Assembly: GCF_002878395.1 (NCBI RefSeq) | Contig: NC_061118.1 | Span: forward strand, 128,942,996 to 129,006,995 | Source: Capsicum annuum | Taxonomy: Eukaryota > Streptophyta > Magnoliopsida > Solanales > Solanaceae | Direction of reading: 5' to 3' | DNA: 64,000 nt | The notes under the pieces: generated by a model | Seen by the model: only the letters and a program-made list of their open reading frames with translations | What the model was told of the DNA's origin: nothing | The model's database searches: none | Part shown: positions 9,094-51,306 of the stretch, piece by piece | Position numbering within the stretch: the first letter of the stretch is position 1 | Layout of the letters: each line of letters starts with the position of its first letter | Made by a program: the position numbers and the translations under genes

Positions 9094-9485
9094 TGATATG
9101 ATCCAACTTCCCTCAAAGTCTTTCACTAGGAGCCAAGCTCAGGAACTATAAAGGTTACAAATGATGTTCATAAAGGGAAAGGTGTTGGCGACTATTTTGA
9201 TCTTATCAAAGTGTTTCTATTTGTTAAAGTTTGAAATAGGAGCTCAAAACGAAGGAATCACTCCCAAACCACCCAATGCTTATGGTTTTGACGGCAATCG
9301 ACCCCTCTTGGTCTACAAGACATTAGGTGCTTGTTGATAAAGAATTTAGGGGGTTTTGAATTTAATATGTTCAATAGTTCCTATTTATTTGTATCTTCTT
9401 GTGTCAATCTATCTTCTATTTCTTATTCGATTGTTCCTATGTTTTTGTAGTTAAAACTCTTATTCTCGTAATCTTTTTCATATCA
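9094..9485 (+). mobile_element. Host element 5' LTR with an internal deletion
   Basis: Begins TGATATGATCC and ends ATATCA just before a primer site. It aligns with the minus-strand LTR at 34397-33853 from its first base through the shared block ccaagctcaggaactataaa, and again around tcgacccctcttgg. About 330 bases, including the TATA box kept in the other copy, are missing between the accaccca and aatgctt blocks near 9275. The tail from 9330 on matches 51140-51306. Confidence 0.65.
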
Positions 9486-9487
9486 TT

Positions 9488-9499
9488 TGATATCAAAGC
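9488..9499 (+). other. Primer-binding site of the host element
   Basis: TGATATCAAAGC, two bases after the LTR end, differs from the tRNA-iMet complement TGGTATCAGAGC at two positions, both G to A. Confidence 0.65.
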
Positions 9500-10543
9500 T
9501 AAGCTTAGAATCATTCCCACGATTGTAGTCTTGGGTTTTATTATCTTATAAAAAAGAAGTCTAAAAATGTTTTGGTGTTTTCTAAAATTTGAGTTATTGA
9601 TTCTTGAGTCTTCTTGTGTTTTTAGTTTTAAATTAGTGTTCCCTAGTACTATTTGAGTCGTAGTCTAAAATTTGAGCTTATTCTAATAAGATAGGAGTGA
9701 CCCACCATTGTTGAATCTTTAGTTTGATGAAATTCGAAGTGGGTTCTAAAATTTGAAATTTATGGTTGAGAATTGAGGCTTAAAATTTCCCGGGTTATGT
9801 TTGGGAACTTGAAAGGAGCTCGAATTTTGAATTTTATTGAATTTTGAGTTTGTTTGCTTAAGGGTTAAATTTTGAATGTTCTTTAAGTTCTTTATGTATT
9901 GTTGAAGAAGAACTCTTAAAGAAATGTTTGATCCAAAAAAGTAAAGTAAAAAAGAAGTGTACTTGTTTATACCAAGGAATATTCCAAAGGAAGGACAAAA
10001 GGCCCACAAGAAATTCTAACCTAAAGGCGTTGATGATTCAAGTGACGATCAATCACACTTGTGACTAACCATAGCAGCTTCCCTGATGGCCAATTTCTGA
10101 GACAAAGTTCAAGCCACATTCTGGATAAGGAAAAATGACTTTACCCCAGTGACGGTCAGTCACCTTAAAAAAGTGATCAACCTAATTAACAGTTAGTGAT
10201 CAACCTACTTAGTTGTACATTAGTTCTTGAGTTCGTTTTCTTTCTTCATCCTATTTCTTTTGTGATTTTCTATTTTTTACTTTGTCATAACTTTTTGGCT
10301 CAAGTCCATACATAATTTTTGTGGGTCCTCCAAACAAGAATCTATTTTGAACAAGAGAAACAATCAACACCTAAACTATCAGTAGAGTATAAACCATCAT
10401 TCAATATTTGTGAATCCAAGTGTGAGGCATACAGTGGTGTGTAGTGTTGTGAGGTTGTTTTCCTAATGTTAACTAGTTTGTTGTTTTTATTAGTGTCTTT
10501 CTTCATAGGTATAGTGCATCCAAAAGGTGAAACATCACAAGCT
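9500..10543 (+). other. Untranslated leader of the host element
   Basis: About 1 kb of AT-rich sequence with many repeats of the words aaatttgag and tttgag between the primer site and the gag start. An 87-codon minus-strand open frame (10009-9746) and a 70-codon one (10554-10342) show no domain. Nothing else was recognised. Confidence 0.5.
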
Positions 10544-11133
10544 ATGGATAGCAATGCCTCAATTACAATCTTAGCTGCAATTGAATCCTTATTTTAGAGA
10601 ATGGAATTCATGGAAGGATACATATCCACCCTATAAGGAAGTGTGTTAAGTATGGAAGGGAGAATGGTTGAAATGGAAAGTCATCTAAACTCCACCTATC
10701 CACTCCTCAAAACTACCATGCCTTATCTAGCGTACATGATCAAAACATATCCACTAGTACCTCCCCAAAAACCCTCCATCAAATTTTCAATCTACCGATA
10801 CAAACACAAGGTTCTAATACCCAAACAATTACCCATCCACAAAATTGAAATCTCATTTGTCCACTCCAGCCCTAATTTAACCAAAAATACCAAATAAAAC
10901 CCCAAAATTAATACCCCAATACCAAGGTGTGCCTCAATCTTCACCTAACCAAGATCCCCTACTCTAAGTCCCCCTTAACCAAAACCAACCCATCCATGTC
11001 AAGCAAGTAAGGAGAGAGGAGACTCAAAAGAGTTTGAAGCATTTATGAAATCAACATATGGGTAGAGAACATAAGGAATAGACAAATGGGTCAAAGAGGT
11101 TGAAGAGAAAGGTTTGGTCTAAATGAGGGATAA
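10544..11133 (+). pseudogene. Host element gag, N-terminal part (broken)
   Basis: ATG at 10544 opens a frame beginning MDSNASITILAAIESLF, then a TAG where Trp or Gln would fit. The frame includes 10643-10897 (84 codons), with a Met- and Glu-rich stretch that may be a short coiled coil, followed by a Pro-rich linker. Several stops and frame changes follow. The reading is cut at 11133 by element B and resumes at 20098 on the far side. It would be the structural protein of the virus-like particle, which packages element RNA in the cytoplasm. Confidence 0.55.
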
Positions 11134-13455
11134 TGTAACACCCCAGATTTTTGGCCTCTAAAAATTTCATGACTTTTGTATTCACTATCTAAGTTACGGC
11201 TTAAGTGATGGGTCATGAAGTCTCCTCACGAGTTATATGGTCCCAATCGTAGCCTGACCAAAAAATTGGCCAAAGTTTCTATCTTGATTATGACATGAAC
11301 CTTATGAGTCGTGAAGACTCATTACGGTCCATAAGGATCAAGTCGTGGGCAAACTAGTGAGCAATACCCAAGTTTATATTGATATAACAACTGGACCCTT
11401 ACGAATCGTAAGGTCAGGTCATAAGTCATAGGGTGTGACTCATGACTAAACCAATGAAGAGGGTCTAAGAGTCTCCCCAGATTATGAGTCTAGGCAATGA
11501 CTCATACCTAGTCATCACGAGTCATGACACGACCCATAACGATAAACGACCAATTTTCTGCTCTTTTAATTAAGGGCACTTTGGTCATTTTTCTCTTTCT
11601 TCAATCATAAGACATGACCATAAAACATCTAAAGGGGGTTATTTTCATTACTTAAACAATCATAAACTACTCTTAAACTCTCTCTAATTCTCCAAGAAAG
11701 AACAACTAGGGTTTTTAAAGGATTGAGAATCTAGGGGTCAATTTATGTTGTTTCTTCTCCAAATTCTTAATAATCTCAGGCATGTATCTCTTTCCTAAAA
11801 CTTTTTTTGCTAAAATCATATGTTTAAATCATCATCCATGTGATTTGATTTATGTATTTGAATTTGGGTTGAGGACTTTTGGATATTGTTGATTGAATTG
11901 CTTTTTCTATGGCTTTTGTGAATCATTCATGTTTTAAATTGAAGGCTTTTGAACTAATTGATGCATGAGAATGGTAATTGGTAATGGGGGGGGGGGGGGT
12001 CATGGATTCCCTCAAATTGATTTGATAAACTTATAGGGGTCATGGATTCACCCAAATTAATTTGATAAACTTACGGGGGTCGTGGAGTCCCCCAACTCTA
12101 CGGATTTTGGTAATTGAATTAGTAATGACCTCAACCTAACTTTATGAAATTAGCTTTGAAACATAGATATATGCATATTGAAACCCAATTTGAAACTACT
12201 ACATTTCATAAAGGGGTAATGGGATACAAACGTCATTAAAAGGCCTTTATAACCATGAGTTAATTTTAAATTGAACCTAAGGGATGTGGATTCCCCCAAG
12301 ATAATGATTCATTGGACCATCAGGGTTGTGTATTCCCATAAGTTGATGAATAATTGGACCATGGGGGTCATGTATTCCCCAAAGTTATTGGTCAATGGTA
12401 ATGGTATAATGATATTAGATTGCAAAAGTAATTGGAATGACGATACCAATGGTATGTGACTTAATGGATGGTCCTTGGTTTAATGAATTAGAATGTGTAA
12501 ATGTTTTAATTAGGCTTAAAAGGGGGTTGTGTAGCTGGCCATAAGGGTGGAGGTCCTAACGGACCAAAACTAGAAACCCGTATTTTTCGACATGAGGGTT
12601 GGTCTTAATGGTTGTGTGCTTGTGTCACACCTTATGTATATTTTTTATGGATTAATGAAGGGTTGTATATTCCCCAAACTTCCTTGACACCTATGGTTTT
12701 TACAACTAACATGTACTGGAGCCCTTCTGGTGGGGGAGCCGAACCCATATAGCCCGTGGGTTCCTTTTAAGACAGTTGAAGCTACACTGTCCAGGTTAAT
12801 ATTTTAACTCTCATAATAACCTTGTCCCCTATCCCGGCATAAAATATGTTTTTATTTATGATTGTGTGTATAAAGTTTTTGAATTATTTTTGACTGATTG
12901 ATTATGGCATTATTTTATCCCCTCCCTAAGTTACATGCTAGCACTTACCCCGCTAACCATCCCTGGACCCTGTATCCCCACACGATACAGGCTTTGAAGA
13001 TACCTTTATTTCCTTATACAGTGGTAGGTGATTTCTGGATTGTCCGTGCGTCAGCTTTGAAGTGGTGATCTTTTATTCTACAAAGGGCCCTCATTTTATT
13101 GTCTTGTCTTTACTAACATCTTAAACTATTATGGCAGCTTTTTAGCTATGGTCAGGGGCATGTCCTAAATTAGGTTGATTTTTATTTCTTAGAGGCTTTT
13201 GTGGACAAAGTTTGGGTGGATTGTGCTATGGATTCTTAGATCCCTCTTGTCATTATTCATCTATATTTTTATATATTTAAAACTTAGCTCTATCTTGTTA
13301 TATATTTGGAAATCATGTTTATCTTGTTTTATGTTCAGAACTCATACACTGCTAGATGTATTATGTTCTGGTTGGCTAGGCTAATGGGGGCGGTCTTTGA
13401 TCCTTGGTAGACTTGAGATACCCATAATAACTAGGACCTGGTTTGGGTTGTGACA
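11134..13455 (+). mobile_element. Element B 5' LTR
   Basis: Starts TGTAACACCCC and ends TTGTGACA, 2322 bases. It is the longer of the two LTRs: about 690 bases here (roughly 11675-12360) are missing from the 3' LTR. The first 450 bases carry many copies of the word actcat.acgagtcgtaag in both orientations. The open frames inside it have no domain. Confidence 0.85.
11987..12100. repeat. Poly-G run and 40-bp tandem repeat within the LTR
   Basis: Thirteen G in a row (11987-11999) lead into two full and one partial copy of a 40-41 bp unit that begins ggggtcatggattc (starts near 11996, 12037 and 12077). The same opening words recur singly at 12363 and 19003. Confidence 0.75.
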
Positions 13456-13458
13456 AAT

Positions 13459-13471
13459 TGGTATCATAGAC
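13459..13471 (+). other. Primer-binding site of element B
   Basis: TGGTATCATAGAC follows the LTR end by three bases. It matches the tRNA-iMet complement except for one G to T change and the last base. Confidence 0.75.
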
Positions 13472-13667
13472 TAGGTTTATAGTTATTGGGTGTCCATAAA
13501 TCCATGTCAAGTAGAGTCTCTTTTATGGGTACGTAATGCACCACACTTATAAGGAAGATGCTATAAGGCATTTAGGAATATTTCCCTTTTCTTGTGATAT
13601 ATATTCGGGCAATAGAGTTTAAGGTCTTAAAATCTCATCTAATCTTCATTTGCTTGCATTTTAGATC

Positions 13668-14800
13668 ATGCCTATGAGAAGATATGATACTCTTAAAAAC
13701 TTCTCTATCCCAATTTAGGATAATGCGGATGGAACTTACACTGTTTATGGAGTTCAAACTCGACCTAAGATCCTTGCTTCTGATTATACTGCCTCTTACA
13801 GAGTTTTACCAGTACCTATAAGTCCTCCTCAGTCTTCTTGGGATGATGATATTTATGCCTCACCATCCTAAGGAGACATTTCTAATATTGAGTTCTATCA
13901 ATCTATTCATCTGCTGATTCTATTGGTGACTTTTTAGTATCTTCAGACTGACTGTGTTGGTTCTATTGCTCTTATCTTCTGAGGAAACTAGAGTAGGATA
14001 GTTTATGAGGTTTAGCTATCTGACCTTTACAAGCTCGAAGGTAGAGGAGGATCCTCAAGGTTTGTTGATAAAATAAAGAAGATATTCTGGGTAATGCATA
14101 CTACTATTGTGGAGGGTGTGGAGTTTTCCATATATCAGTTGAAAGATATGGCATATTAGTGGTATAAAGAGTGTGAGTAGTCGAAGGGTGATGATGCTGA
14201 GTCAGCTATATGGGAGGAGTTTTTTGATGCTTTCCTCGATCATTTCTTTCATCAGGAATTGAGAGAGGCTAAACCTGAGGAATTTATGAATTTAAAATAG
14301 AGATGGATGACTGCGAAGGAGTATGCTCTGAAATTCTACCAGCTATTTTGTTATGCTCCAGAGATTATATCTAGTATGAGGGTGGGAATGAGGAAGTTTT
14401 CTTTGTGTTTGTCTCAGGACTTAGTACTAAAGTGTAAGGCTGCAATGTTGAATAATGGCATGGATATATCTAGGCTTGTGGTGTATGAAGTAGGTTGAAG
14501 ATGAAAAGAAAAAACAAATAGAAATATGAGAGAGGCAAAATAAAAACCTAGATCTTCAGAGCAGGGTGGAGGCCAGTAGAATAGTGAGTTTAAAGCCCAA
14601 GGTGCCTAGTTTCAGACTAGTGAAGCTCAATCAGAACCACCTCACCTTCCTTTTAGATTCTGTGGACATTTGCATAATGGTTAGTGCTATGTGGGGAGGA
14701 ATCATTACTTTAATTATGGTCAGCTAGGGCATATGGAGCGATATTGTTCAGCTAATATTGCTTCTTGAGCTAATAAGGTTTCGATTTTAACTTCATGAGT
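13668..14800 (+). pseudogene. Element B gag (broken)
   Basis: The ATG at 13668 lies at the same place after the primer site as in element D, and both proteins share the 'DN(A/V)DGT' stretch. The retrotransposon gag domain is readable from about 14036 (LYKLEGRGGSSRFVDKI, later FYQLFCYAPEI and a VVYEV end near 14495). A CCHC zinc knuckle at about 14698-14750 reads YFNYGQLGHMERYC, with the first two Cys changed to Tyr. Stops replace Trp or Gln at several points (for example 14158, 14298). It would have formed the capsid and bound RNA. Confidence 0.75.
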
Positions 14801-14811
14801 TCCTAGACCAA

Positions 14812-15375
14812 GGGGTGCTACTTTTGGTACAGACATTAGTCAGAATTATCTTTATGCTCTTACCACTCATCATGAATCTGAGGCATCTGCTGATGTTATT
14901 ACTGGTATGTTGAAACTTTTCTTACATGATACATATTGCCTGTTTGGCCCAGTGTCCACCCTTTATTATATGACCCCTTATGAGGTTGCTCATTTTGGTT
15001 TCGATCCTGAGAGTATTTTTGATCCTTTCTCTGTGTCTACCCCGGTAGGTGATTCTATTATGGCTAGAAAAGTCCATAGGCCTGTGTGGTATCCGTCTTT
15101 CATAAGGAGACATTAGTGGACCTATTAGAGTTGGATATGGTATATTTTGATGTTATATTAGGGATGGATTGGCTTTATTCATGCTATACTTTCTTGGATT
15201 GTAGGACCCCTAAGGTTAGTTTCCAATTCTCGAATGAACCAATGATTGACTAGGAAGGGAATTCTCTAGTACCTAAGGGAAAATTTATTTCCTATCTAAG
15301 AGCGCAAAAGTTGATTTCTAAGGGGTGTCTATACCATCTAGTGTTGGTTAAGGATTTTGATTCATAAAGTCCTTC
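14812..15375 (+). pseudogene. Element B protease region (broken)
   Basis: An aspartic protease of the retroviral type is recognisable from 'LYALTTHHESEAS' to '[14 protein letters not shown]'. The active-site stretch, normally D-x-G-S-T in this family, reads FGPVSTLYYMTP near 14942-14977, so the catalytic Asp is gone. A frame break follows near 15113, and the DVILGMDWL flap-side motif lies near 15150-15178. It would cleave the polyprotein during particle maturation. Confidence 0.7.
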
Positions 15376-15394
15376 CATGTGATCTATCCCACTG

Positions 15395-16230
15395 GTTAAT
15401 AAATTTCCTAAAGTACTTCCCGATAATCTTCCTGGTATTCCTACCGATAGAGAAATAGACTTTAGGGTTGATCTTTTATCGAATTCCCATCCTATCTCTA
15501 TCCCTCTATATAGAATGGCTTCGGCTGAGTTGAAAGAGCTTAAGAAGCAGTTAAAGGATCTTCTTCATAAGGGTTTCATCCGTACTAGCATCTTTTCGTA
15601 GGATGCGCCTGCGCTTTTTTGTGCATAAGAAGGATGGGTCTCTTTAGATATGCATAGACTATCAGTAGTTGAATAAGGTAACTGTGAAGAATAAGTTCCC
15701 TCTCCCGAGGATTAACAACCCTTTTAACCAGTTTCTATATGCTAGATGTTTCTCTAAGATTAATCTTTGATCGGGTTATTATCAATTAAAGATTATGGAT
15801 GTGGATATCCCTAAAATTGGTTTTTGTACCCGTCATAGTCACTATGAGTTCTTGGTTATTTCATTTGGTTTGACTAATTCTCTGACTGCGTTTATGGATT
15901 TCATCAATTGGGTATTCAGGAAGTTTTTTAATTTATTTGTTATCGTGCTCATTGATGATATCTTGGTGTATTCTAAGAGTGAGGAGGACTATGCCAATCA
16001 CCTTCGAGTAGTGTTGTAGATTCTTTAGGATTAACAGTTGTATGCCATGTTTTTGAATTATGAGATTTGGTTGAATGTTGTGACCTTTTTTGTTCATGTG
16101 GTTTCCAGTGAGGGGATCATGGTGAATCCATAGAAAGTTAAGGCGGTTAAGAAGTGTCCTAGACCCACGACTCCAACCGTCAAGCGGAGATTCTTAGGTT
16201 TAGTTATGTATTATTGGAGGTTTGTGGAGA
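15395..16230 (+). pseudogene. Element B reverse transcriptase (broken)
   Basis: The RT domain can be followed through 'PGIPTDREIDF', 'RMASAELKELKKQL', '[15 protein letters not shown]', 'SGYYQLKI' and 'SFGLTNS'. The catalytic box reads [10 protein letters not shown] (both Asp kept, codons 15948-15959) where the family has F-I-D-D. Stops appear at 15599, 15627 and in the SKINL-x-SGYY segment, and frameshifts disrupt 15595-15700. The enzyme would copy element RNA into DNA. Confidence 0.8.
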
Positions 16231-16316
16231 GCTTTTTTTCTATTGCTGCTTGATTAACTAAGCTTACTCAAAAAAAGGTGAAACTTCTATGGTCTAATTC
16301 CTATGAGGGTAGCTTT

Positions 16317-16374
16317 GAGAAGCTGAAGGATAAGTTGATTTCTTCGAGAAGCTGAAGGATAAGTTGATTTCTTC
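16317..16374 (+). repeat. Perfect 29-bp tandem duplication
   Basis: The 29 bases starting gagaagctgaaggataag occur twice back to back (16317-16345 and 16346-16374). They encode the F-E-K-L-K-D-K-L segment that links RT and RNase H. As 29 is not a multiple of three, the duplication shifts the frame. Element D has one copy at the matching place (46436-46460). Confidence 0.95.
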
Positions 16375-16379
16375 TCCAG

Positions 16380-16790
16380 TTTTGACCTAGTTAAGGGAAC
16401 TAATGGTTTTGTTTTTTACTGTGACGTATCTCATATGGGACTAGGTTGTGATTGATGCAGCATGATAGGGTGGTAAAATATGCTTCTAGACAGCTCAAGG
16501 TTCATAAAAGGAATTGTCCGACTCATGGTCTAGAGTTGGCAGCTGTGGTGTTTGTATAGAAGATTTGATGCCATTATTTGTATGGAGTGCATATTGATAT
16601 CTATTTAAACTATAAGAGCTTATAGTATGTGTTCACTAGAAGGAGTTAAATCTCAAGCAAAGAAAATGGCTTGAGTTGCTTAAGGACTATGACATGAGTC
16701 TCCACTACCATCCAAGTAAGGCTAATATGGTTGTTGATGCTCTTAGCAGGTTGTCAATGGGGAGCTTATCTCATATGGACGAGGAGAAAA
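16380..16790 (+). pseudogene. Element B RNase H (broken)
   Basis: Ty3-type RNase H: the first catalytic Asp region reads DGFVFYCDVSHMGLG with a frame problem after it, then '[20 protein letters not shown]' and 'HYLYGVHIDIY'. Three stops fall at Gln or Trp sites. The C-terminal tether 'YHPSKANMVVDALSRL' is intact at about 16703-16755. It would remove RNA from the RNA-DNA hybrid. Confidence 0.75.
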
Positions 16791-16979
16791 GAGGATTGGT
16801 GAAGGATATTCACCGATTGGCTAATCTTGGAGTTTTTTTTTGGATTCTGAAGATGGAGGTATGATTGTTCAATAGGTGTTAAAGTCATCTTTTGGTTTTG
16901 AGGTAAAAGAAAAATAGGTTTTGGATCCAATCTTTATGCATATTAAGGATTATGTGGGCCAACAGAAGGTTATGGATTT

Positions 16980-18335
16980 TGAGATTAGGTGTGATGGCAT
17001 CTTTAAGTATCAAGGTAGGTTGTGTGTTTCACATATTTATGGGCTACGGGATGGATTTTAGCTGAGGCTCATGAGTTGAGGTATCCAGTTCATTCTGGTT
17101 CAACGAAGATGTACTATGACTTGAAGGAGATTTATTGGTGAAACAACATGAAGAGAGATGTGGCCAATTTTTTGGCTAAGTGTATGGTCTATCAGCAAGT
17201 TAAGGTTGAGCACTTGAGGACCGATGGTATGTCTCAAGAGATTGAGTTGCTCATGTGGAAGTGGGAGATGATCAACATAGATTTTATTACTGATCCTCTG
17301 CGATCTCAAAATCAAAATGATTTGATTTGGGTCATTGCGGATAGGTTGACTAAGTCTTCTCACGTTTTACCTGTGAGGACTAATTACTTTGAAAGGGATT
17401 ATGCCAATTAATTTATGCAGGAGATCGTCAAGTTGCATGGTGCTCCAATTTCCATCATTTTTTATTGAGGCACACAATTCTCTTCCTACTCTTGGCATTA
17501 ATTTAAGAAAGGCTTGGGCACACAGATGAACCATAGCACTGCGTTCCACACTTAGATAGATGGATAAGTGGAAAGGACCATTCATACTTTAGAAGATATG
17601 CTAAAGGCTTATGTGATTGATTTTGGAGGTAGTTGGGTGGATTATTTGCCTCTCATTGTGTTTACATATAATAACAGTTATCACTCTAGTATTGGGATGG
17701 CTCTTTTTAAAGCTCTTTATGGTAGGAGGTGTAGATCTCTTATTAGGTGGTTTGATGTTGGTGAGACTAGATTGTTCAACTTGGACTTAGTTGACCAAGC
17801 CATGGAGAAGTTAAAGGTGATCAGGGATAGGCTTAAGACTGCTCAGAGTTGCTAAAAGTCCTATGCGAATGTGAGGTAAAGAGAGTTGGAGTTCGAAGTT
17901 GGCGATTTGGTGTTCTTAAAGGTATCTCCTATGAAGGGAGTGATGAGGTTTGGGAAGAAGGGGAAACTCAGTCCCTTCTATGTGGATTCATACTTTATTT
18001 TGAAGTGAGTAGGGAACGCCACTTATGAATTGGATTTGCCTTCGAGTTTGGGTTCCATTCACCTGATTTTCTCTGTGTCGATGTTGAAGAAGTGTGTGGG
18101 CGATCCTTCTTTGGTTTTGACTATTAAGAGTTTTGGTATTTCAAATTATTTGTCTTATGATGAAGTTCCAGCTGAGAGTTTAGATAGGAAAGTTTGTCTT
18201 TTGAGGACTAAGGATGTAGCTTCGGTGAAGGTCCCTTGGAGGAACCACAACGTAGAAGAAGCTACTTCAGAAGCTAAAAAGGACATGAAGTCCAAATATC
18301 CATTCTTGTTCCTCGGGTTGGATAATCATGCTTAA
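16980..18335 (+). pseudogene. Element B integrase with C-terminal chromodomain-like region (broken)
   Basis: From about 17060 the H2C2 finger ('HSGSTKMYYDLKEIYW', 'KCMVYQQVK') leads into the DDE core. The first Asp lies in 'INIDFI' near 17273. The second is lost (IIFYxGTQF, near 17455). The Glu lies in 'DGxVERTIHTLEDML' near 17560. The block from 17568 to 17855 is open for 95 codons. The GPY/F-type C-terminus starts near 17880, and the end (18180-18335) reads 'LLRTKDVASVKVPW' and 'VEEATSEAKKDMKSKYP', the degenerate chromodomain tail of Del/Tekay elements. Such tails are thought to steer insertion towards marked chromatin. Confidence 0.8.
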
Positions 18336-18451
18336 GGTATGTGTTTTCCTACTTTTTTGTTTTTCTAACTTTGTTAATGGCTTTATGAATGCATTCCTAT
18401 GTTACAATCGTGCTCATGGATGCCTTGATTCATCATTTGGGGACGAATAAT

Positions 18452-18464
18452 CTTAGGGGCAGAA
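18452..18464 (+). other. Polypurine tract of element B
   Basis: CTTAGGGGCAGAA just before TGTAACACCCC; decayed by one C. It is preceded by 'atcatttggggacgaa', the usual end of the internal region. Confidence 0.75.
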
Positions 18465-20092
18465 TGTAACACCCCAGATTTTTGGCCTCTAAAAATTTCT
18501 TGACTTTTGTGATCACTATCCAAGTTATGATTATGTGACGTGTCATGAAGACTGCTTATGAGTCGTATGGTCCCAATCGTTGCTTGAACAGAAAGTTGGC
18601 CAAAGTTTTTATCCTGAGTACGACATGGAAACTCACGAGTCGTAAGACTCATTACGAGCCAAAGGGATCAGTCGTAGGCAAACCAATAAGGAATGCCCAA
18701 GTTTCTATTTATATCACGACTGAACCCTTATGAGTCATAAGGTGACATCATGAGTCGTAGGGTGTGACTCATGACCAAACCAGTGAAGGCGGTCTAAGTG
18801 TTTGCGCAGACTACAAGTCTAGGTAATGACTTATATCCAGTCGTCACAAGTCATGACATGACCCATAACGACTGGCGACCAGTTTCCTGCACTTTTAATT
18901 AAGGATACTTTGGTTATTTACCTCTTTCCCCAATTATAACCCATGACCATAAAACATCTAAAGAGGGTTATTTTCATTATTTAGACAATTTTAAGCTACC
19001 ATGGGGGTCGTGGATTCTCCCAAGTTAATGGTCAATGGAAATGGTATAATGATATTATCTTGCAAGCGTAATTGGTATTACCAACGATATGTGCCTTAAT
19101 GGATGGTCCTTGGTTTAATGAATGGGAATGCGTAAATATTTTAATTGGGATTAAAAAGGGTTGTGTAGCTGGCAGTGAAGGTTGAGGTTTTGAGGGACCG
19201 ATACTACAAACTTGTATTTGCCAGCGCAGGGATTGGTCTTAATGTTCGTGTGCTTGTGTCACACCTTATATATATTTATCATGGAATGGCGAAGGGTCGT
19301 GGATTCCCCAACCTTCCTCAATACCTCTGGTTCGTATGACTAATATGCATTGGGGCCCTTCTAGTGGGGGGAACTAAACCCATATAGCCTGTAGATTTCT
19401 TTTATGACGATTAAAGCTACACAGTCTAGGTTAATATTTTAAATCTCATGCTAAACCTTGTCCCCTATTCTGACATATTATTTATTTATGTATATGATTG
19501 TGTACATATGGTTTTGGAATGATTTTGGACTGATTTTGGACTGCTTGATCATGGCATTATTTTATCCCCTGCCTGAGTTACATGCTAGCTCTCACCCCGC
19601 TAACCGTTCCCGAACGTTGTATCCCCATGCGATGCAGGGTCCAAAGACACTTTTGTTTCCTTGCACAATGGTACGTGATTTTTGGATTGTTCATGAGTCA
19701 GCTTTGAAGTGGTGAGCTTCCATTCTCCAGAAGGCCCTCATTTCATGGTCTTGTCTTTACTTACGTCTTAGACTATTTTGGTAGGTGTTTGGCTATGGTC
19801 GGGGGCATGTTCCGACTTTGGTTGATATTTGGTTTCTTAGAGGGTTTTATGGACAAAGTGTGGGTGTATTGTGGATTCTTAAATCCCTCTTGTCGTTGAT
19901 TTATCTATCTCGTTGTATATTTGGAACTCAGCTCTATTTTTTTATATATTTGGAACTCATCTCTATCTTGTTATATGTTTGAAACTCATCTGCTGCTAGT
20001 TGTATTATGTTATGGTTGGCTGGGCTAATAGGTCTGGTCCTTGGCGGACTTGAGGTACCCATGACAACTAGGCCTTGGTTCGGGTTGTGATA
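18465..20092 (+). mobile_element. Element B 3' LTR with a 690-bp deletion
   Basis: Begins with the same 34 bases as the 5' LTR and ends GGTTGTGATA (CA decayed to TA), 1628 bases against 2322. The deletion joins 'aagctacc' (matching about 11672) to 'atgggggtcgtgg' (matching about 12361) near 18999, removing most of the R/U5 repeat region. Confidence 0.85.
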
Positions 20093-20097
20093 GACAA

Positions 20098-20950
20098 CCA
20101 CCACCATGGGATGCTTTAAAGGGCATCATCAGATAAAAACATAACTAGAAAGGTATAGGCATGAGTTGCTTGCCAAATTGTACAACTTAAGGCATAAGAA
20201 CAAGAGTGTTTTAACCTTTTATGATGAATTTCAATAATTGATCCTGAAGCTTGAGTATCATAAGAACATGGAACATTCCATCATCCGCTTTAAGGTTGGA
20301 TTAGACAAGGAGATTTCCATATCCATGACTTTCCATAGGTTTGCTACCATTGAAGAAATATTTCAAGAGGCCTTAGAGGTTGAGAGAGAACTCACGTTGA
20401 GGACATATATCAAACCCAAAGGGTACTCATCCACTAATTCTTGGAGTAAGAACAAAGAAGTACCTCAACCATTATTGAGATGGAACAAGAATAAGGACAT
20501 CAACAAGTCTTATGACAAAAAGCCCATAGAAAAGACTACTCTAAAGCACCTAATAAGGAATGAAGGTAACAAATATCCAACTCTTAATCCTAAAGGTTTT
20601 AAATATTTTAAATGTCCAGTTTAGGGACACAAGGCAAATTAATGTCCTAACCGGAGAAATGTGATCCTTAGAGAAGGAAAGTTTTATTACCTTGGAGAAG
20701 AGGTGGGACTAGAAGAGGATAGTAAAGGAGAAACCCAAGGAGTTAAAATTGAAGAATATGAACAATTAGAGGGAGATGGTGTGGATGCTTAGCCTCAAGA
20801 TAGAGAGTTTGAGGTTCCAAACTTTATGGTAAGACAAGTAGTGACTAGTGAATAATTAGAAGACCCAAGTCAAAGGGAAAATCTATTTCATACTAAATGT
20901 CTTATTAAGAAGAATTTGGTCATTGATAATAAATTACTTCAAGATGGAAA
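20098..20950 (+). pseudogene. Host element gag C-terminus and start of protease
   Basis: Continues the gag cut at 11133. The open stretch 20238-20624 (about 129 codons) reads as a gypsy gag: 'RFKVGLDKEISI', 'IEEIFQEALEVERELTLRTY', then a Lys-rich linker. The zinc knuckle reads YFKCPVxGHKANxC (about 20601-20650): its first Cys is Tyr and two stops sit where Trp and Gln are usual. 'SQRENLFHTKCLIKKN' near 20868-20915 is the start of the protease in this family. Recognisable coding ends at about 20950, before the D-G-G-S catalytic motif. Confidence 0.7.
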
Positions 20951-21231
20951 AAAGTAGATAAAATCAATTTGAATTTGTTAAAAATATTTACCTATATATG
21001 AATATTGAAAGGAGACCAAGTATTAAGAAAAAATATTATCGTTCTAGTTATACCATTTATAACATTCACATTTAAGTCAAAATAGATAATAAAATACTAA
21101 ATATAAAAAAGAGATAGAATTTAACTTTAAAAATTTTAAACGAATAAATCATAATAATCTCAAGGAAGATCTTGAATTTTTTTTTTTTTTTAATCTTATT
21201 AATAGATTCATTATTTAGTTAGACTATATTA

Positions 21232-21787
21232 CGAAAATTTGTATTTGAATAAAAAAATCACTAAGGTTACAAACTTATTTTTCTCAAGAAAGAAAAACAC
21301 TATGAATAATTAAAATCATTTTTAACAATTAATTTTCTTGTTTCAAGCCTATATTGTTTGAATATATAGTGACCTTCTCATAGATTTCTTCTTCTTAAAA
21401 TCTCATTATTAATTAGTGACAATAGTTCTTCAATATGTGGATATTTTACTATACCAAAATATGATATTGAATAACGATTAATAAAATTAAAAAAAATCAA
21501 TCATTTTTATCATAATTATGCAAGACCTCAAAATAATATATAATCAAGAAATTATATTATTCATAGTATAAATTTATATTTGTATAAAGAGATTAAAAAA
21601 TTAACAAACCTAATTTTCTCGAGAAAGAAGAATAACTACGAATAATTCAAATCATTTTCAACAAATGATTTTCTTGTTTCAAACCTATGTTACATTGTGA
21701 TTACGTTGTTCAACCTTCTCATATGTATATTCTTCTGCTGAACTCTCATTCTGAAATATTGATAACATTTCATCAATATGTGTGATT
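21232..21787. repeat. Diverged direct duplication, two copies of about 215 bp
   Basis: Copy 1 (about 21232-21443) and copy 2 (about 21570-21787) share in order ttgtat/ttgtat, acaaac, tctc.agaaag, tatgaataat/tacgaataat, attttcttgtttcaa, ccttctcata and ttc.tcaatatgtg. They are separated by about 126 bases of other AT-rich DNA. Confidence 0.6.
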
Positions 21788-21947
21788 CTTATTATGTTGA
21801 AATCTTTATATTTAAAGCCTGAAATTTATGAAGAAAACTTTGAATTAATATTTAGCAAACTATTGACAATTCTTATTTCTACATATTCATAATGAAAAGC
21901 CTGATAAATACCAATAAGGCTAATGATCAATAACAATAACAGAGAAA

Positions 21948-21963
21948 CAGAGAGAGAGAGAGA
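21948..21963. repeat. (GA)n microsatellite
   Basis: Run of GA dinucleotides after 'acagagaaac'; read as CT on the minus strand. Confidence 0.85.
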
Positions 21964-23461
21964 TAAAAGAAAAGTGTGCCACTATTTCTGTGTTATTGAA
22001 TTAGTATGTATAGCCATATAAAGTCAAATTTTCCATATAATAAAAATAAAATGTAAATTATAAATTAACTTTTTAAAATAAGTACACAAATTAACTTAAA
22101 TCATAAAACTTAAGATATTTATCTTTTCAAAATTTAACTTTTCCATATAAACATCACTGAATTGATATAAACAATATTTTAAAACGTGATACAACAACAA
22201 AAACAATAAACCCAGTATATTCCCACATTTTAAAACGTGATAAATGAATTAAATAATCCAAAAATGTTGTGGCATTATATTTTTTTGTCTCTATTTTTTT
22301 AATACATAAGAGATGCTAAAGCCATATAATTACTCCATCTAAATGTGGAGATCTTGTTGAAGACTAATACCCAACTAAAATAGATTAATACATATTAATT
22401 TAAAATTTCTACAAAATAATCTCCTTTCTTTTATAGTGCAAACTTACCATTTAAAAATTACTCCTATTTCATTTGAATAAATAAGTTCTTAGTAGATTGC
22501 ACAAATAAGTTAATTAATTATATTTATTTTCATTAAATAAATAATGTACGATATTATTGTAATACGACTACACAATCAACTAATTAATTTCAATTAATAA
22601 GAATCAATTTTCTAATCATAATATATAAACTCAAGTTCCTTAAATTTAATGATGTAAATTCAAAATATATTTATGGCTAAAGTAGTAGCCAATGTTCGTT
22701 GTTTTTTTACCAATATATGTATATCAATTACGTAACTTTGAATATATATTTTCTGTTAAAATAATTCTCAATATTAAATGATTTTTACATCAATTTAATC
22801 TAATTAATTTGATGAAAATAAAATTATTATTAATATTATAAATATCTACTTACCATAAACCTGTCCTAATTTTATATCTTGATTATATTTAATTACTGTA
22901 CAATTACAGAAAGGACTCAAAAATGGAAACCACTGATATTAGTTACCATTATAATTTCGGAAATTCAATCCCATAAATTTCTCATATTTTTATAGTTTCA
23001 TTATATTAATTTGATATTAGTTACCTTCATAATTTGGGGAAGAATTTTAAAAAGGTAACAATTATTTTTTTCTCAATTACTGTTTTATTTTCCAAAAATT
23101 TCTTATAAAATTTTAATTTGACTATAGTCAATTGATTATATAATTATCTTTATAATTTTCTAAACACTCAAATAAGGTAACAATTATTTTCTTTCCTAAT
23201 TACGGATTTTCTTATATTCATTCATTTATTGTTTTACAAAAATAGGTCAAACTTATTTGTGATTAAAGTTGAAATATTTTTAAAAAAATGTCAATTAAAT
23301 TTTTTTCATATAAGTTGTTTGATTGCTAATTGATTATTAATTCACAAATTTTTCTTCTAATACTTTCTTGATTTACTCAGTTGTAATGAAATCATGATTT
23401 TTTAAATATAATATCATTATTTATTATATTGTTTGCATATTTTAAGGGGTGACATCTATAT

Positions 23462-23646: not shown

Positions 23647-24033
23647 GTGACATCTATATTATCATATTCCCCATTTGATAATATTTGTTTCAAGATTGGC
23701 AATTAACTATTTTCTTTTATACAAAAATGTAATTAGTGAAATTCATACAAAGATTGTTTAATTAGTTGGATTAGTGTCAATATAGCAGTAATATCTAATT
23801 TTAACTATCTTTCAATTAAATTCATATTTTTGTTTTATTTGAATTTAAAATTTTACATCCTTCCATTAATACTAAAAGTTTCTCATCTCAATCAAAATAT
23901 TTCTTTTCCAATTATGTCTCTTGATTGTAATTGATTACCATGTCATATTGAGTTACTCAATATGTCTTTTCATAAATGTCAAGTAGTTGCACAACTAATA
24001 TTACATACTTTTCTTAAACATACGAAGGATATG

Positions 24034-36560: not shown

Positions 36561-37452
36561 GACTTATGAAATATTAAAAGTGTAATGCTAGTATTCTAAG
36601 GAGTTGAAGATGGAGTGTTGAGTGTATAGAAGCATAGATGTCTATACCCATGAAAATGTTAGTTATAAGGCAATGACTTTGGGAGTCGGAGCAAGTTATG
36701 ATTAGATTTCTCTAAGAGGATGTCCTAGAAAGAATTTAGTGTCTTTGTATTAAAGTTGTCGAATGGATTTTGCGTTCTCGTGTATGGTGACCCCCCATTG
36801 AATAGTGTGCTGTGCATATAGATTTAATGGGGGGATATACTTTCAAGGTTAGGATAGTGGCCTTTGAGCTATGTGGAGATGATGCAGACCTTGAATTGTC
36901 TCATGGTAGTTAATTTAGGAGGTAAGTCAAGATAAATCTATTCTTACTATAGTAAAATCCTCCTATTTCAGTTTAAGAGGACATTCTACCAACATCCCCT
37001 GTATTCAAATGGTGTCTATGCATAAGTTTTTAGCTCTCAATATGACCTATATCCATGTTCGACCCTCTAATTGTGATCTAAGTGTTTTGATGTGTGGATC
37101 CCTTCGTGCTTATTTGATCATATCTTACGTCATAGAACCCATCTTGAGTAGTACAACAAATATATGTTGTATTTGAATACTTTTACTCCTACTTTTTGAA
37201 GCTCGTACACTATTCCCTCAGTTACTCTCCTTGTGACAGGATGTTAGTGGTTATAAAAGCATAGTAATAATATAGATTAGAGAGTGGATGATTTTTTTAC
37301 TAAAAAATTTAGTGTGACTACTCGAACTAAGGTTGTAGATAAAGTGGAAAGAGTGAGGTGAATCTTTTGTTATATGGAATAGATGGAGAGGTATACATAG
37401 TGAAAATCTTTGTGAGGGTGATAGAGGTTGTTGGGTTTTTTGTGGGGAGATC
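36561..37452 (+). mobile_element. Degenerate 3' internal end of an LTR element
   Basis: No domain is readable with confidence. The end reads 'gggttttttgtggggagatc', a polypurine-like tract directly before the LTR at 37453. It is therefore taken as the decayed 3' end of the F-type element whose LTR follows. A 67-codon minus-strand frame (37530-37327) overlaps the LTR start and is chance. Confidence 0.4.
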
Positions 37453-39130
37453 TATAATGACCCTTCTGACCATTTTTATATTTCCGCTTATTTTCTCCAT
37501 TAGGGGTTCTCCATAGCTTCCCCAAGTCATTTATGACTTACTGGGACCGATGGTTTGGTTATCAAGAAGTTCATTTGATTTTTAGAGCCAATTCTCTATT
37601 TTGAAATTTTCATTGGTTCCAAATGGCCATACGCGAAATCTTCAATGAAATGATCTCGGATGCAAATTTTGTTTATGCCAACAGATTTGAAATATTAATT
37701 TCAGTCTAGGTAGACCTTTGGTTTGGGTTCCAATGCACTCGAGCTCATTTCGATCTACTGGTCGAAAACTTAGAAAATCAAAATATGGATGTGGGACCCA
37801 CATTTGGTCAAAACGACCTCAGATTGAAGATATGACTTTTCTACTTCTCCATCATGATCGGAACATTAAATTTAGGCTGGGGGAACACCTGGTTCATGTT
37901 CCAACGCTTCCGAACTTATCTTGGGCTATTGAGAAGATTTTATGAAAAATAAAACTATAAGTGTGGGCCCCAATTTTTGCCGAAACAATCTTGGATGTTC
38001 TTTTGATAATTCCAATGGATTTAAAATGTGCTTTACACTCAAATTTCACTATTGTATCATGTTATTTGGGTTCCAAATGAGTTTCAAGGGTCAAAAATAA
38101 GTTTTTGACTTAGCTGTCATGGGGATATCACATCTCTTAGCGGAGAGGGTCTATAAATAGACCCCAAGGTCGCGAATTTGAGGATTTTCCCTTCATTTTT
38201 GAGAGACTAAAACCCTAAATGGGTATGATAACTCAAAATTGAGTCTTGTGGGTATCTACGGAGCTTGGTAAACATCTTTTATCTTGATTATCTTAAAGAT
38301 GAAGGTAAGATTTCATCACTTTATTGGTGAATTTCTTAGTTCTTGACCTAAAACCCCAATTTAGCTTAGAGCTTGATTTAACCCTAATTTATCTTAGGGC
38401 TTGATTTTACCCCTAATTTGGTTTGTTTGCACTCATTAATTAAGGGTTATGATTCCTTGGTGATGTATGAGCATTGGGTTGACCTCAAAAACCCAATTTT
38501 CGTATGTGGGACCTACTTTGTTTTTTTTGGTGTCATTTTTTGACTAGAAGCACAATAGTGCAATATGGGTATCATTAAACTCGTATTGATGAGTAAATTA
38601 TGTTTTTGATAGCAAGAGTACATTTTGGGGATTGTGAAGTGAAGATGAGCATGTGGTGCATAATGTGAGGTTTTGTGGTTTGGCCTTGAGGTAGCCTTCT
38701 ACCTATTATTCTTAGAAGATGATGTGTGTTATGTATGGTATATGAATATGAATGTTTGGCTTGATTATGAATAAATAGCCTAGTATTTATTATTGATGTT
38801 TGGGGAATTGGAAGAGGGATTTGGATCCATAAGGTAGTATTAGTAGCTGAAATCGGAATTGAGAAGTATTGAGATATTTAAGGGCTATTAGTATAAGACC
38901 CTCAAAGTTTCCAACATTTTAATTTTTGCATTCCCGTTCTTGAAATATCGATTTTTGACTCAAATCATGTTTGGATATGTAAAAATGGTAACCAAGGAGA
39001 GTTTTGGAATATTCAGATGGGGTTCGAGGTAGTTTTGAGTCACGGAGGTAGTAAGCCTCCGCGATAGCTGCGTGACGTGGAAGTAGTGTTCCGCGATAAG
39101 GTCCGTGGCGCGGACCTAGGTAAACCTTTG
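37453..39130 (+). mobile_element. F-type LTR, truncated at its right
   Basis: Starts TATAATGACCC (TG decayed to TA) after a purine tract and has a clear TATA box at 38151, then 'ctaaaaccctaaatggg'. From about 38500 it parallels 51320-51660 (gattttgatag, ttgg.ttga.gaggtag, attagtataagac). The last 120 bases (39040-39115) are GC-rich with 'cctccgcgatagctgcg'. No LTR end is seen; at about 39130 it abuts the internal end of E. Confidence 0.55.
38148..38165 (+). promoter_or_regulatory. TATA box within a perfect palindrome
   Basis: GGGTCTATAAATAGACCC reads GGGTCTAT, AA, ATAGACCC: an 18-base inverted repeat enclosing TATAAATA. It lies about 700 bases into the LTR, where transcription of the element would start. 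Confidence 0.7.
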
Positions 39131-39387
39131 ACTATTTTGATTTTCTTACTTGGGCTGAGGAGCTTTGAATCTTTTGCCCTTTATACAACCTTAGTCTCGT
39201 GGTCTCATGATACGTGCGTACATAAATTTCTTGGGGACACCATGAAACCCTTTTCTTTTAGTTTCTATACATGTTTTGTGGAGGGAAAATTCTTAATGTG
39301 GAAGTTACATACCTTTTTCCATACTTCTAAATCTTCAAAATATTCCTATCCATCATTCGAGGACGAAGGATTCCAAGGGGGAGATAA
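39131..39387 (+). mobile_element. 3' internal end and polypurine tract of element E
   Basis: Homologous to 5640-5858 of element A (tacaaccttagtct, tctcatgat, atacttctaaa, catcattcgaggac). The tract CCAAGGGGGAGATAA (39373-39387) precedes the LTR. A 121-codon open frame (39077-39442) spans this and both neighbours; since it crosses the LTR start it is not a gene. Confidence 0.7.
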
Positions 39388-39540
39388 TGTAACACCTTAT
39401 ATTTTTGGGATAGAATTTGAACAATTATTTCTACGTGTATAAACTTTAATCTAATTATTTATATATAAAAATAAGTGTCAAGATCATTTTCCTAGTGTGA
39501 AAAGTATTGTTGAGGGGAAAAAAGTTCATATTAAACACTT

Positions 39541-39606
39541 TGAGGGAAGTGGAGTTAAGAACTGAGGGAAGTGGAGTTAAGAACTGAGGGAAGTGGAGTT
39601 AAGAAC
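39541..39606. repeat. Perfect 22-bp tandem repeat, three copies
   Basis: The unit, beginning tgagggaagtggagtt, is repeated three times without change (39541-39562, 39563-39584, 39585-39606) in the U3 part of the E LTR. The minus-strand E LTR at 33700-33750 has no such array. Confidence 0.97.
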
Positions 39607-41210
39607 TTATGTTATCACCTAAATTTTGGAATTCAATTTTATAAAGGTCAACTTTGAACGTGTCTAACTTCTAGAATATGTGGAATTTTGGGCCTCAAGA
39701 CCCACTAAATTATAGATAAATGTGACCTCTTTCCAAATCACCCAATTTCTCCTTAATCTGATACCCAGGCAAAAATTATGAGTATTTTCATGAGGAGGCA
39801 GTAAGGGTCCATGATAACGGCACAACACGGAATTTATCATGGAGATTACCCTCCAAGATGCGTTGATACTTTAAATTCATCAATTTTTGGATTTGTTAAC
39901 TTGGGAGGAGGGGTGTTGAAGTACTTTCACTTATAAACGAGCCTAAAACACTATATTAACCCATTTACATCAGTTTTCATGACATAACATCAGTTATTAC
40001 AATTTAAAAAATCCTCTCTCTCAAATTCCCTTTTTCAATTCAAGACTGGGGTTCAAGGAGGTGATCATCTAGGGTCCTAAGGGTGTTTCTTTCTTAAAGT
40101 TTCTTTGTAATTAAGGCATGTACCTCTTTCCCTTGAACTTATATTTTGTTATTGGCATGAACTTAATTATTAATGATTATTAGTGAATGCTTTGAATGTG
40201 AGTTTTGGCAAAATTAAGGGCTTTGACATGATTAATCATTTAATTGATCTTCTATTTTTTTAGTATGCACTATTCATGCTTTATTAATATTGTCAACATT
40301 GTGGGGTGCTTGGGAATGGTAAATTGAATTCCGCGGTATTGTGGATTCCCCAATTACTTACTTTTTGTTTTGGAAATTGTATGCCCTCAACATGTTTGTG
40401 AAATTTTCAAGGAATATGGTTTTGTCACCTAGTTGGTTTGTTCACTTATATTAATTCATTGGTATGAAAAGGTTAATGGATTCGAGGTATAATGGATTCC
40501 TTAATTTTGTAAAATAAGGTAAAAAGGGTAAAATTGAAACCCCAAAATGTTTGATTTGATTTATTACTTGAACTAAAGCATTGCATAAATGACAAAATGG
40601 TTAATGATGGTTTTGAAAATCTTGTGGGGTACACTTAAATCCCCTAAGTGATTGTTAAAATAAAAACCTTTTGGGGTACACGAGAATCCCCGAAGTAATT
40701 TTATTAGTGGAGTTTACAGGGTACATGGGAATCCCTTAAGACCTAGCTTAATGACATTGCTTGCAAGCTATAATCAGTATGACGATACAACTAATTTATG
40801 CCTTATTAATTGAATCTTGGAATTTGTGGTTTGATTATGTGATAAATATTTTAATTGGGCTATAATGGGGGTTGTGATAGCTAGTCGTGAAGGTATGAGT
40901 TTGAAAGGTTGATAGTGGAATCTCATAATTGCCGACATGAGGATTGGTGTTGATGACCATATGCTTGTGGGGTACAAGGAAATCCCCCAAGTATATACAC
41001 ATACATATGTAATATTAAGGGCGAAGGGTACAAGGAAATCCTCAGCCACCCATGGTATCTCCAGTTCATGCATCTAACACACACCGAGGACCATCTACAA
41101 GGCAAAACTGGTCTCATATAGCCTGTGGGTGGATTTATGATGATAATGCTACACAACCTCGGGTAAAGTTTTAAACTTTCATGATATGCCCTGTTTTGTT
41201 ATGCGGCATG

Positions 41211-41235
41211 ATATATATATATATATATATATATA
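41211..41235. repeat. (TA)n microsatellite
   Basis: Twenty-five bases of TA within the E LTR. Confidence 0.9.
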
Positions 41236-41356
41236 AATATACTTATATATTTGTATTTGATGGTTATGCATTGGTTTTACTAGTTTTCATATTATGGATC
41301 ATGGAATTACTTTACTCCCTTATCCCTGAGTTACATGTTAGCGCTCTAACCTCTAA

Positions 41357-48376: not shown

Positions 48377-48536
48377 CATCATACTTTTGTTTTCAAACTT
48401 TGTTAAAGGAAATATTGACTTTCTTGAATCTTTGTTCTAACTTAGTTAAAGGTAAGAGTTGAGGTGGTGGGGAGTAAATCGTGCTTGTAGTGCTTTGTTC
48501 CATCAATCGATGATGAATGATCCAAGTGGTGGAGAA

Positions 48537-50666
48537 TTTAAACTCCCTAGGTCTTGGTTCTTGGAAATATCCAGAGTTTTGATCTTCTGATCATCATGTA
48601 ATTCACTATACTAGTCGTATGGTGAGGGTACGAGTCAGGTAAACTATCTCATATATTATCCAGTAGTGGTGGGTGATTTTTTGTTGAGGGTACCGGTTGG
48701 TAGGGATGAGTTGTAAGTTCAGGGTACAAGTGTTCTAGTACAGTCGTATGTTATCTATTGTCTAACCCCTTTGATTCTGTCTTGGGTATAGTTTGAAGGT
48801 ACTAGTCATATGTGTGGATAAATTTTGGGCAAGGGGAGTCATATAGTGGACAGTATATGATGTCCAACCTTATGATCAAGGTATGAGTAGAGGGTACCAC
48901 TCGTATGATATAGGTATGAGTGAGGGGTTCAAACTTTACCCTCATGCGGTGATTTTTACAGTTTAAGTTGGGGCATTCTGGACATTTTCCCTCTTAATAT
49001 AATTTGACCCCACGACTTAAAACTCTATTGGGACTTCATATGCCCTATTATTCTCAATCAAAAACATCCAAAACACTCTCAAATCTCTCTCAAGCTCTTG
49101 ATTCAAGAAAGGGCTAGGGTCTCCTCAAGGTGATTCGATCAGGGGATTTCAAGAGTAAATCTCTCCATTTTCTTTGATATGTAAGGCATGTTACTCCTCC
49201 CTTATTGTTAGTTCAAATAAAAAGCATGTTTTCATGGATGGTTTTTAAGGTATTATTGTTGTATGTTTTTGATTTTAAAATATATGTTGAGGGTTTTGGT
49301 TACTAATGGTTGGATAATGTTTTCCCATGTTCTATTTATGGTTTTTCATTTTATAATATTGGTTTGAACATATAGTTGTATGGTAATGGTAAATTGGTTT
49401 ATGATTTTGGTTTTGGAAACAATATGCCCTCATTATGTTCGATAAAATGCCTATGAGAATAGTTTTGCCACATAGTTTGACTTTGATTGAAAACTTTGCA
49501 TTGTATAATATGGTAATAGAAGCTAAATTGGTTTGATTTAATTAAATGATGTGGAAAGGACTTGTTGGTCATGATTTTGAGTGATTGGAAATCCTATGGG
49601 GTACATAGGAATTCCCTAAGTGTTGGTTAATGACATTGCTTGTAAGCTATAGTCAGTATGATGATACCACTTCATAATGCCTCAGTAATTAAATCTTGGA
49701 ATTAGTGGTTTGGTTATATGGTAAAAGGTTTTAATTAGGCAATATTGACGGGGAGTGAGAGTTGGCGGTGAAGGTGTGAGTCCGATGGACGGAGATTAGA
49801 ACCTTATGTTTGCCGACGTGAGGGTTGGTCATAGTGACCATATACTTATGGGGTACACGAGAATACTCTATGTAATATGTATCATGGAGGGCGAAGGGTA
49901 CACGAGAATCTCTGACCCTTATGATATCTCTGGTTCGTGCAGCTACACACACTGGGGCCCGTTCAAGGGGTAACACTAGATCCATATATATATTTTAATG
50001 CATGCTAAACCTGATTCCATTTCTAGGCATAGAATATATATGTATGAATGTGATTGTATATGGTTATTTACTTTGGTGTTGAATAATGACACTACTTTAT
50101 CCTTATTCCTAAGTATATGCTAGTGTTCACCCTTTAACCCGTCTTCCGGTGCTGTCTCCCCATGCGATACAGGAACTAACCATACTACTCCTTCTACTTA
50201 GTGATTGGATTCAGGGAAAACATTTGTGCCAGACAGAAGTGGTGAGCTTCCATACTCCAAAAGACTCCACTTCATGCTATGGACTTGTCATATACTTTTG
50301 TTATTTTTTAGACTTTAGCTTTTGGCGATCGTCGGGGGCATGTCCTTATTGGATATTGTTTTACTTTTGGATAGAGGTTTTGTGAGACTACTTTAGTTTG
50401 GCATGGACGATGTCGGTATTAGTGTCAGCCTTGGCATTGGTATTAGTATTTGGCTTGACACCGATTGGATATTTGATTGGATTGTTGGTTGGTTATGATT
50501 ATGGATCTATTATTGTTTTTGAGTACTTATTACTCTATCTTGTTTTATGTTTGAACTTTATCTGACATAGGTTGTAGGGTGGTTATGGTTGGGTGTTGGG
50601 GGTGGTCTCCAATCCCGATTGGACTTGAGGCATCGACATAACTAGGCCCTGGTTCAGGTCATGTCA
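48537..50666 (+). mobile_element. Element D 3' LTR
   Basis: Starts TTTAAACTCCC (decayed TGAAACACCC) after a weakened polypurine tract, ends CATGTCA. It follows the 5' LTR through 'cttctgat.atcat', 'tcactatactagtc' and 'tgccgac.tgagggttggtca'. Frames at 49985-49731 (minus) and 50149-50385 have no domain. Confidence 0.8.
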
Positions 50667-51125
50667 GCAACCATCTTCAGATGTTGTATCCCCACACACT
50701 GCAGGATTTGGACATACTTTTACTCCCCCAGCACAATGATTAGGATTCAGGATTAGTTTATGAGTTGACATTAAAGTGATGATCTTCCATACATCCGAAG
50801 TCTACATTTCATGATTTGGATTCCTTATGTGATAAATTTTTCTTTGGTCTTGTTTTGGCTATTGTCGGGGGCACGTTCCAACACTTTGTTGGTATTTAGT
50901 TTTTGGTAGAGGCTTTGTGGATACTATGGGTTTGGGTATTGTGTACGCTTCAGATGTTGATCCTTTACATAACCTTTTTAGAACTCTTATCACATTTGTC
51001 TTATTTTGGTGTTTATCCACCGCTAGGTGTTCTTCATTATATTGGAATAGGCTCAAGGGACGGTCCCTGGTCCTTGGTAGACTTGGGATGCCCGTCACAG
51101 CCAGGCCCTAGTTCAGGTCGTGACA
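50667..51125 (+). mobile_element. Element E 3' LTR, right part
   Basis: Continues the LTR broken at 41356: 'gttgtatccccacacactgcagg', 'ctattgtcgggggcacgttcc', and the end 'caggccctagttcaggtcgtgaca'. The host LTR follows at once. The frames of 64-99 codons here (50859-51202) are in the LTR and chance. Confidence 0.75.
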
Positions 51126-51306
51126 TGGACCATGGTGAGATTAGGTGCTTGTTGATAAAGGATTTAGGGGGTTTTGAATTTAATGTATTCAATAGTTCCT
51201 AGTTTTTTCTATCTTATTGGTTCAATATTACTATATTTTATCTCTAATTTGATTATCTCTTTATTTCCTTAGTTAAACCCTTGTTATCGTAATCTTCCTC
51301 GTATCA
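51126..51306 (+). mobile_element. Host element LTR, last part
   Basis: From 'attaggtgcttgttgataaa' to 'cctcgtatca' it matches 9325-9485, the end of the host 5' LTR. The first five bases (TGGAC) repeat TGAAC at the other end of E with one change, as a target duplication. After 51306 follows CATTA. Confidence 0.65.

Follow-up and report, generated by a model that had tools for sequence, protein, structure and literature searches.

Composition of the locus

The stretch of DNA analysed here, referred to as the window, comprises 64,000 nucleotides of Capsicum annuum (C8:128942996-129006995) in a genome assembly of 3.21 Gb and 80,840 contigs. Names C1 to C12 with long coordinates denote contigs, and bare C1 and C2 denote the two long terminal repeats (LTRs) of an element C described below. 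Between 9094 and 51306 lie the scraps of a Ty3/gypsy element, which we call E. The initial annotation had assigned four pieces of this interval to one element explaining most of the window. All four were found within a few bases of where it had placed them. The element has a 42.2-kb span and 5.8 kb of DNA of its own, so E spans the region rather than explains it.

The E family is repeated in the genome (56 matches listed, from the best 40 of 196 candidates, 3 of them inside the window). Seven family loci were fetched. All parts of E are present in two, L010 on contig C5 and L009 on contig C4; L011 shares the LTR and 5' parts with E, and L012-L015 match E in the LTR only. The parts of E, including the end of its reverse transcriptase (RT), are as follows.

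9089..9093, plus strand: left target-site duplication of E, TATTA (from empty sites L051 and L052)
9094..9485, plus strand: 5' LTR of E (self-BLAST, family LTRs)
9486..11133, plus strand: primer-binding-like site and 5' gag region of E (colinear with L010 and L009)
20093..~20928, plus strand: remaining gag and beginning of protease of E, the final bases being common to the joint with repeat X (colinear with L010 and L009)
33853..36562, minus strand: inverted piece of E with RT end, RNase H, integrase and 3' LTR head (34397-33853) (Pfam RNase H, chain matches, colinear with L010 5678-8312)
51126..51306, plus strand: 3' LTR tail of E (self-BLAST, family alignment)
51307..51311, plus strand: right target-site duplication of E, CATTA

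The 5' LTR has TG...CA ends and an internal deletion of ~0.3 kb; the LTR of relatives L012-L015 is ~0.7 kb long. In a self-comparison of the window, 9093-9261 matched the reverse complement of 34231-34398 at 80.5%, and 9319-9485 matched 51137-51306 at 80.1%. Because of both pairings, the second LTR is seen to be split into a minus-strand head and a plus-strand tail. Aligned with the 5' LTR, as the initial annotation had proposed, the head is 81% and the tail 82.5% identical. The 5' LTR is adjoined at 9486-9499 by TTTGATATCAAAGC, a candidate primer-binding site that, judged by eye, resembles the initiator-methionine type.

In the inverted piece, RNase H was found by Pfam in two minus-strand open reading frame pieces within 36233-35742. 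One RNase H piece had the Ty3 Gag-Pol chain 7q5b as its best match (E value 1.8e-8), and the other RT/RNase H piece the retroviral Gag-Pol chain 8wus (E value 1.8e-5). Integrase matches within 35446-34827 (minus strand) were weak to chain 7q5b (E value 0.026) and extended to other elements of the window. The minus-strand order of RT, RNase H, integrase and an LTR head starting at 34397 is the Ty3/gypsy order. The E copy is long dead. It has acquired stop codons and deletions, and RT, much of which is missing, contains an 87-bp tandem duplication. From gag, ~265 bp has been lost in a separate event beside an insert A, ~15 bp to its left (by-eye comparison with L010 and L009). The duplication lies at 36388-36557, and L010 and L009 align to both of its units from one place.

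Evidence for a single insertion

The E pieces fall in order and without overlap on both full-length relatives. On L010, 274-440 corresponds to the E LTR, 1325-3166 to E LTR and gag, 3693-4514 to window 20093-20918, 5678-7677 to window 36563-34317 reversed, 8158-8312 to 34040-33856 reversed, and 8311-8491 to window 51126-51306, some short stretches between the aligned pieces being without alignment. Gag and integrase both map to L010 and L009, and not to different full-length elements. From protease to RT, E lacks 1163 bp as measured on L010 and 1140 bp on L009, which agrees with the ~1 kb that had been described as missing at the joint.

The outer flanks read TATTA before TG... and CATTA after ...TATCA, a match at four of five bases; two random 5-mers of the window match at 4 or 5 positions in 2.3% of draws. 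The flanks were searched for separately in the genome (left, window 8693-9093; right, window 51307-51907). Two places were common to the best 40 of 756 candidates for the left flank and the best 40 of 2426 for the right, and at both of them the flanks are adjacent. On contig C12 (L051), the left match runs to 110699358 and the right match starts at 110699362 on the minus strand, with a 5-base overlap that reads CATTA after the sequence was fetched and aligned. On contig C10 (L052), the left match ends 12 bases before 9093, and a forced alignment, in which those 12 bases match poorly, gives a 5-base overlap, CATTT. Both are paralogous copies of the surrounding repeat without E in the same genome. 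The empty site on contig C12 excludes chance as the source of the TATTA/CATTA match, and since the flanks are adjacent at the paralogous empty sites, 9094-51306 is one insertion and 9093 and 51307 were once neighbours.

Whether the two LTR copies belong to different subfamilies, a concern of the initial annotation, is answered in the negative for the heads and less favourably for the tails. The 5' and minus-strand heads are sisters among 16 sequences (FastTree 0.952, IQ-TREE 95). FastTree makes the tails weak sisters (0.733, 19 sequences), and IQ-TREE places them apart without support. In these trees some LTRs stand in two rows (L002 with L010, L008 with L013). At least two separate E-family insertions lying close together might mimic one, since the family is repeated, and the unpaired tails in IQ-TREE would fit such an arrangement. 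It is contradicted, however, by the empty sites with their 5-bp overlap, the non-overlapping content, the sister heads, and the head and tail that overlap by 5 bp where C inserted, and we regard it as barely credible. With empty sites and colinear pieces in agreement, the four pieces are almost certainly the remains of a single old Ty3/gypsy insertion, as first proposed.

Element C and the inversion

A second element, C, lies in the 3' LTR of E and borders the inverted piece. Four C elements were fetched for comparison (L024, L026/L027, L028 and L029), and the C-family LTR is ~2.3 kb long.

32634..33852, minus strand: C1, first ~1.2 kb of the C 5' LTR, inverted (self-BLAST to C2)
36559..36562: breakpoint joint of the inversion, with E RT (minus) on one side and C interior (plus) on the other; AGGA may be common to both
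36563..39387, plus strand: C interior in two parts, 36563-37457 and 38834-39387, with insert Z between them
39388..41356, plus strand: C2, first part of the C 3' LTR (in four family LTRs it continues directly into 50667-51125)
50667..51125, plus strand: C2, rest of the C 3' LTR

Both interior parts sit directly upstream of the 3' LTR in all four fetched elements. The E head is adjoined by the C 5' end (minus, 33852) and the E tail by the C 3' end (plus, 51125). In L010 coordinates the head extends to 8315, since 33856 equals 8312 and the head continues for another three bases as far as 33853. The first base of the tail is 8311, so the E-LTR positions beside the two C ends overlap by 5 bp. The target copies in the window are TGAAC and TGGAC, and five of eight relative LTR sequences have TGGTC there. 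Because the C ends face opposite ways and yet abut LTR positions that overlap by 5 bp, the inversion is demonstrated independently of the order of the E pieces. The target duplications of E and of C place it later than both insertions. At its right end the flipped E piece joins the C interior directly, and not a C LTR. Un-flipping the segment between E RT and the C interior restores the normal order of both elements. The inversion first proposed from the E pieces is thus confirmed by the C ends and by the direct E/C joint. Of its proposed bounds, 20950-36560, the right one holds and is refined to 36559-36562; the left one does not hold, as described below.

A third partial C-family copy, consisting of an interior end and an LTR start, lies to the left of E at 5647-6133 (plus strand).

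We also considered whether the inverted arrangement might be a mis-assembly of a repeat-rich region, the assembly being fragmented into 80,840 contigs and every piece being a repeat. Assemblers are usually misled by near-identical long repeats. The copies around the joints are instead 80-90% alike, and we consider an assembly error most improbable.

The left joint

The gap between the protease of E and C1 is occupied by a repeat, X, and an element, F.

20922..28074: X, a 7.1-kb piece, truncated on both sides, of an AT-rich repeat (22.6% G+C) present in high copy number
28075..32633, minus strand: F, a repeat of LTR type inserted into the C 5' LTR (family LTR approximately window 32037-32633)

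The position 20950 given by the initial annotation as the left end of the flip falls in this 7-kb foreign block; E protease meets X at 20922, over an imperfect shared run resembling ATTGATA. Copies of X elsewhere in the genome are 86-94% identical, and all seven cut-out copies extend leftwards beyond 20922, which indicates that X is truncated here. At 28060-28075 X meets a truncated LTR of F, whose far LTR is cut to ~0.1 kb at this joint with its far end lost. Between E protease and F, about 1.1 kb is missing from E, 2.0-2.1 kb from the C interior, 1.1 kb from the C LTR and 0.5 kb from the F LTR, and these are the sequences that the model predicts there. The C block expected at the left gave no match in 20900-32700; the largest losses are therefore concentrated at the single site from which, under the model, the left joint has disappeared.

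X contains a Stowaway-like miniature inverted-repeat transposable element at 26564-26815, which is absent from the copy L042 (contig C1), and a unit resembling a short interspersed nuclear element at 23445-23660, which has TGACATCTATAT on both sides and is presumably of the nightshade TS type. At several F-family loci (L044-L050), LTR and interior stretches alternate, as if LTR recombination had made tandem runs.

Mechanism of the inversion

Two breaks, one in E and one in C, probably account for the inversion, a mechanism that we favour over recombination between the inverted C LTRs. C1 and C2 are inverted repeats (78.5% identical) flanking the inverted E segment, as such recombination would need, and E borders foreign DNA at 20922 as well as at 36561. 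Under this alternative, E would still be single, a solo C LTR would lie in its 3' LTR, and the C fragment would belong to a foreign chunk (X, F, C LTR and C interior) spliced into E pol. The best trees group C2 with L026/L027/L029 and not with C1 (IQ-TREE 74, FastTree 0.889). Since C1 and C2 are unpaired there and the tail tree of E is weak, recombination between C-family LTRs keeps some weight. It requires, however, two C-family insertions, the formation of a solo LTR and the insertion of the chunk, whereas the C parts make up one element without duplicated interior. A C1/C2 pairing was not rejected in approximately unbiased tests (p 0.108 with nine LTRs, 0.154 with seven), and in a five-LTR count C1 and C2 have 11 exclusive states in common; the two LTRs of L028, known to be a pair, also have 11, and the remaining pairs have 2-8. 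We consider such recombination unlikely.

The grouping of C2 away from C1 also counts against the history proposed below, as do four other observations. The left joint that the model predicts is represented only by its absence. AGGA, possibly a short sequence shared at the right joint, occurs at that position in only one of two E copies (L009) and one of four C copies (L028). Some other copies are closer to the tail of the E 5' LTR (up to 0.866) than the 3' tail is (0.815). Finally, ~280 bp of C is missing at Z for no apparent reason.

Other nested insertions and surroundings

Besides C and F, three further inserts interrupt E or C, in keeping with the at least five nested insertions first proposed (A, C, B, Z and F).

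11134..20092, plus strand: A, Ty3/gypsy type, nested in E gag; target copies GATAA/GACAA
41357..50666, plus strand: B, Ty3/gypsy type, nested in C2; LTR pair 83% identical
37455-38840: Z, nested in the C interior

The LTR pair of A is 82.5-83% identical, and both L010 and L009 carry a single GACAA at the insertion site. About 690 bp of 40-42-bp tandem units (11670-12358) lie in the A 5' LTR and not in its 3' LTR. Four C-family LTRs in three elements (L026/L027, L028 and L029) are unbroken across window 41356/50667; the match to the L024 LTR ends at 41251. The B insertion site reads GCTAA in three of these family LTRs and ACTAG in L028, and the window copies are TCTAA and GCAAC.

Immediately to the left of E, 1811-2616 and 7487-8229 form direct repeats, ~84% identical and 5.7 kb apart, that resemble the LTRs of another old element. 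At the right, another Ty3/gypsy element (minus strand) occupies 59500-64000 and continues beyond the window edge; it gave an SH3-like match and, below threshold, a chromodomain match.

Age and proposed history

Kimura two-parameter distances between paired LTRs were 0.20-0.22 for E (~167 sites per half), 0.20 for A, 0.195 for B and 0.186 for C; the F pair gave 0.074 on 113 sites. At the Capsicum rate adopted in PMC12298681, 7e-9 substitutions per site per year, E, A, B and C would be about 13-16 million years old, inseparable within error, and F about 5 million years old.

A single E with nested inserts, an inversion across E and C, and X filling the gap is likely the best explanation of the whole. 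E inserted once between the present 9093 and 51307 with a 5-bp target duplication. A then entered E gag and C the E 3' LTR, and B and Z inserted into C. Two breaks, one in the E RT region and one in the C interior, probably released a segment holding the E pol end, the 3' LTR head and the 5' portion of C, and end joining probably put this segment back the other way round. The insertion of F into the C 5' LTR may have preceded or followed the flip. Afterwards the left inversion joint appears to have been lost along with stretches of E, C interior, C LTR and F LTR. The truncated 7.1-kb copy of X now in the gap is probably filler from break repair. The sequence itself shows the single insertion of E, the order of its pieces, the nesting of A, C and B, the inverted orientation and the direct E/C and E/X joints; the two-break mechanism, the sequence of events after C and the origin of X as filler are deduced from it.

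The inversion, the loss of ~4.7 kb at the left joint and the gain of X might instead be one replication-based repair event with template switching, which we think rather doubtful; possible short shared sequences at the joints would fit template switching and are not firm. If true, this reading would make a dead retrotransposon the step-by-step record of a complex local rearrangement.

Comparison with known systems

What happened at the locus is ordinary decay: insertions nested in one another, an inversion on a local scale and a loss patched by a filler block, each a known process. The value of the locus lies in how completely an ordinary event is documented, and it is not a new kind of element. 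It has no bearing on gene function, and its breakpoint record is useful for understanding how repeat-rich plant DNA decays through small inversions and patch repair. It also illustrates that a single insertion can be recognised from the raw sequence even when its parts are 42 kb apart and in both orientations.

E resembles other Ty3/gypsy LTR retrotransposons in the one-strand order of RT, RNase H, integrase and LTR, and no functional difference from them was found. The program REANNOTATE rejoins fragments of one element across nested inserts; its rules, as set out in PMC2672092, take hits in one orientation with, by default, no more than 40 kb between the end of the first hit and the start of the last. 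Applying these rules by hand, we find that the inverted piece of E fails the same-orientation rule and that the span of ~40.0 to 41.6 kb is at the limit; the orientation rule as given there would probably leave E as separate fragments. Like the nested LTR-retrotransposon clusters of large plant genomes, the locus has older elements split by later ones and target-site duplications, here at the E, A, B and C insertions. It differs from them in that the host element E is also inverted across the joint to its own insert and partly overwritten by a foreign repeat.

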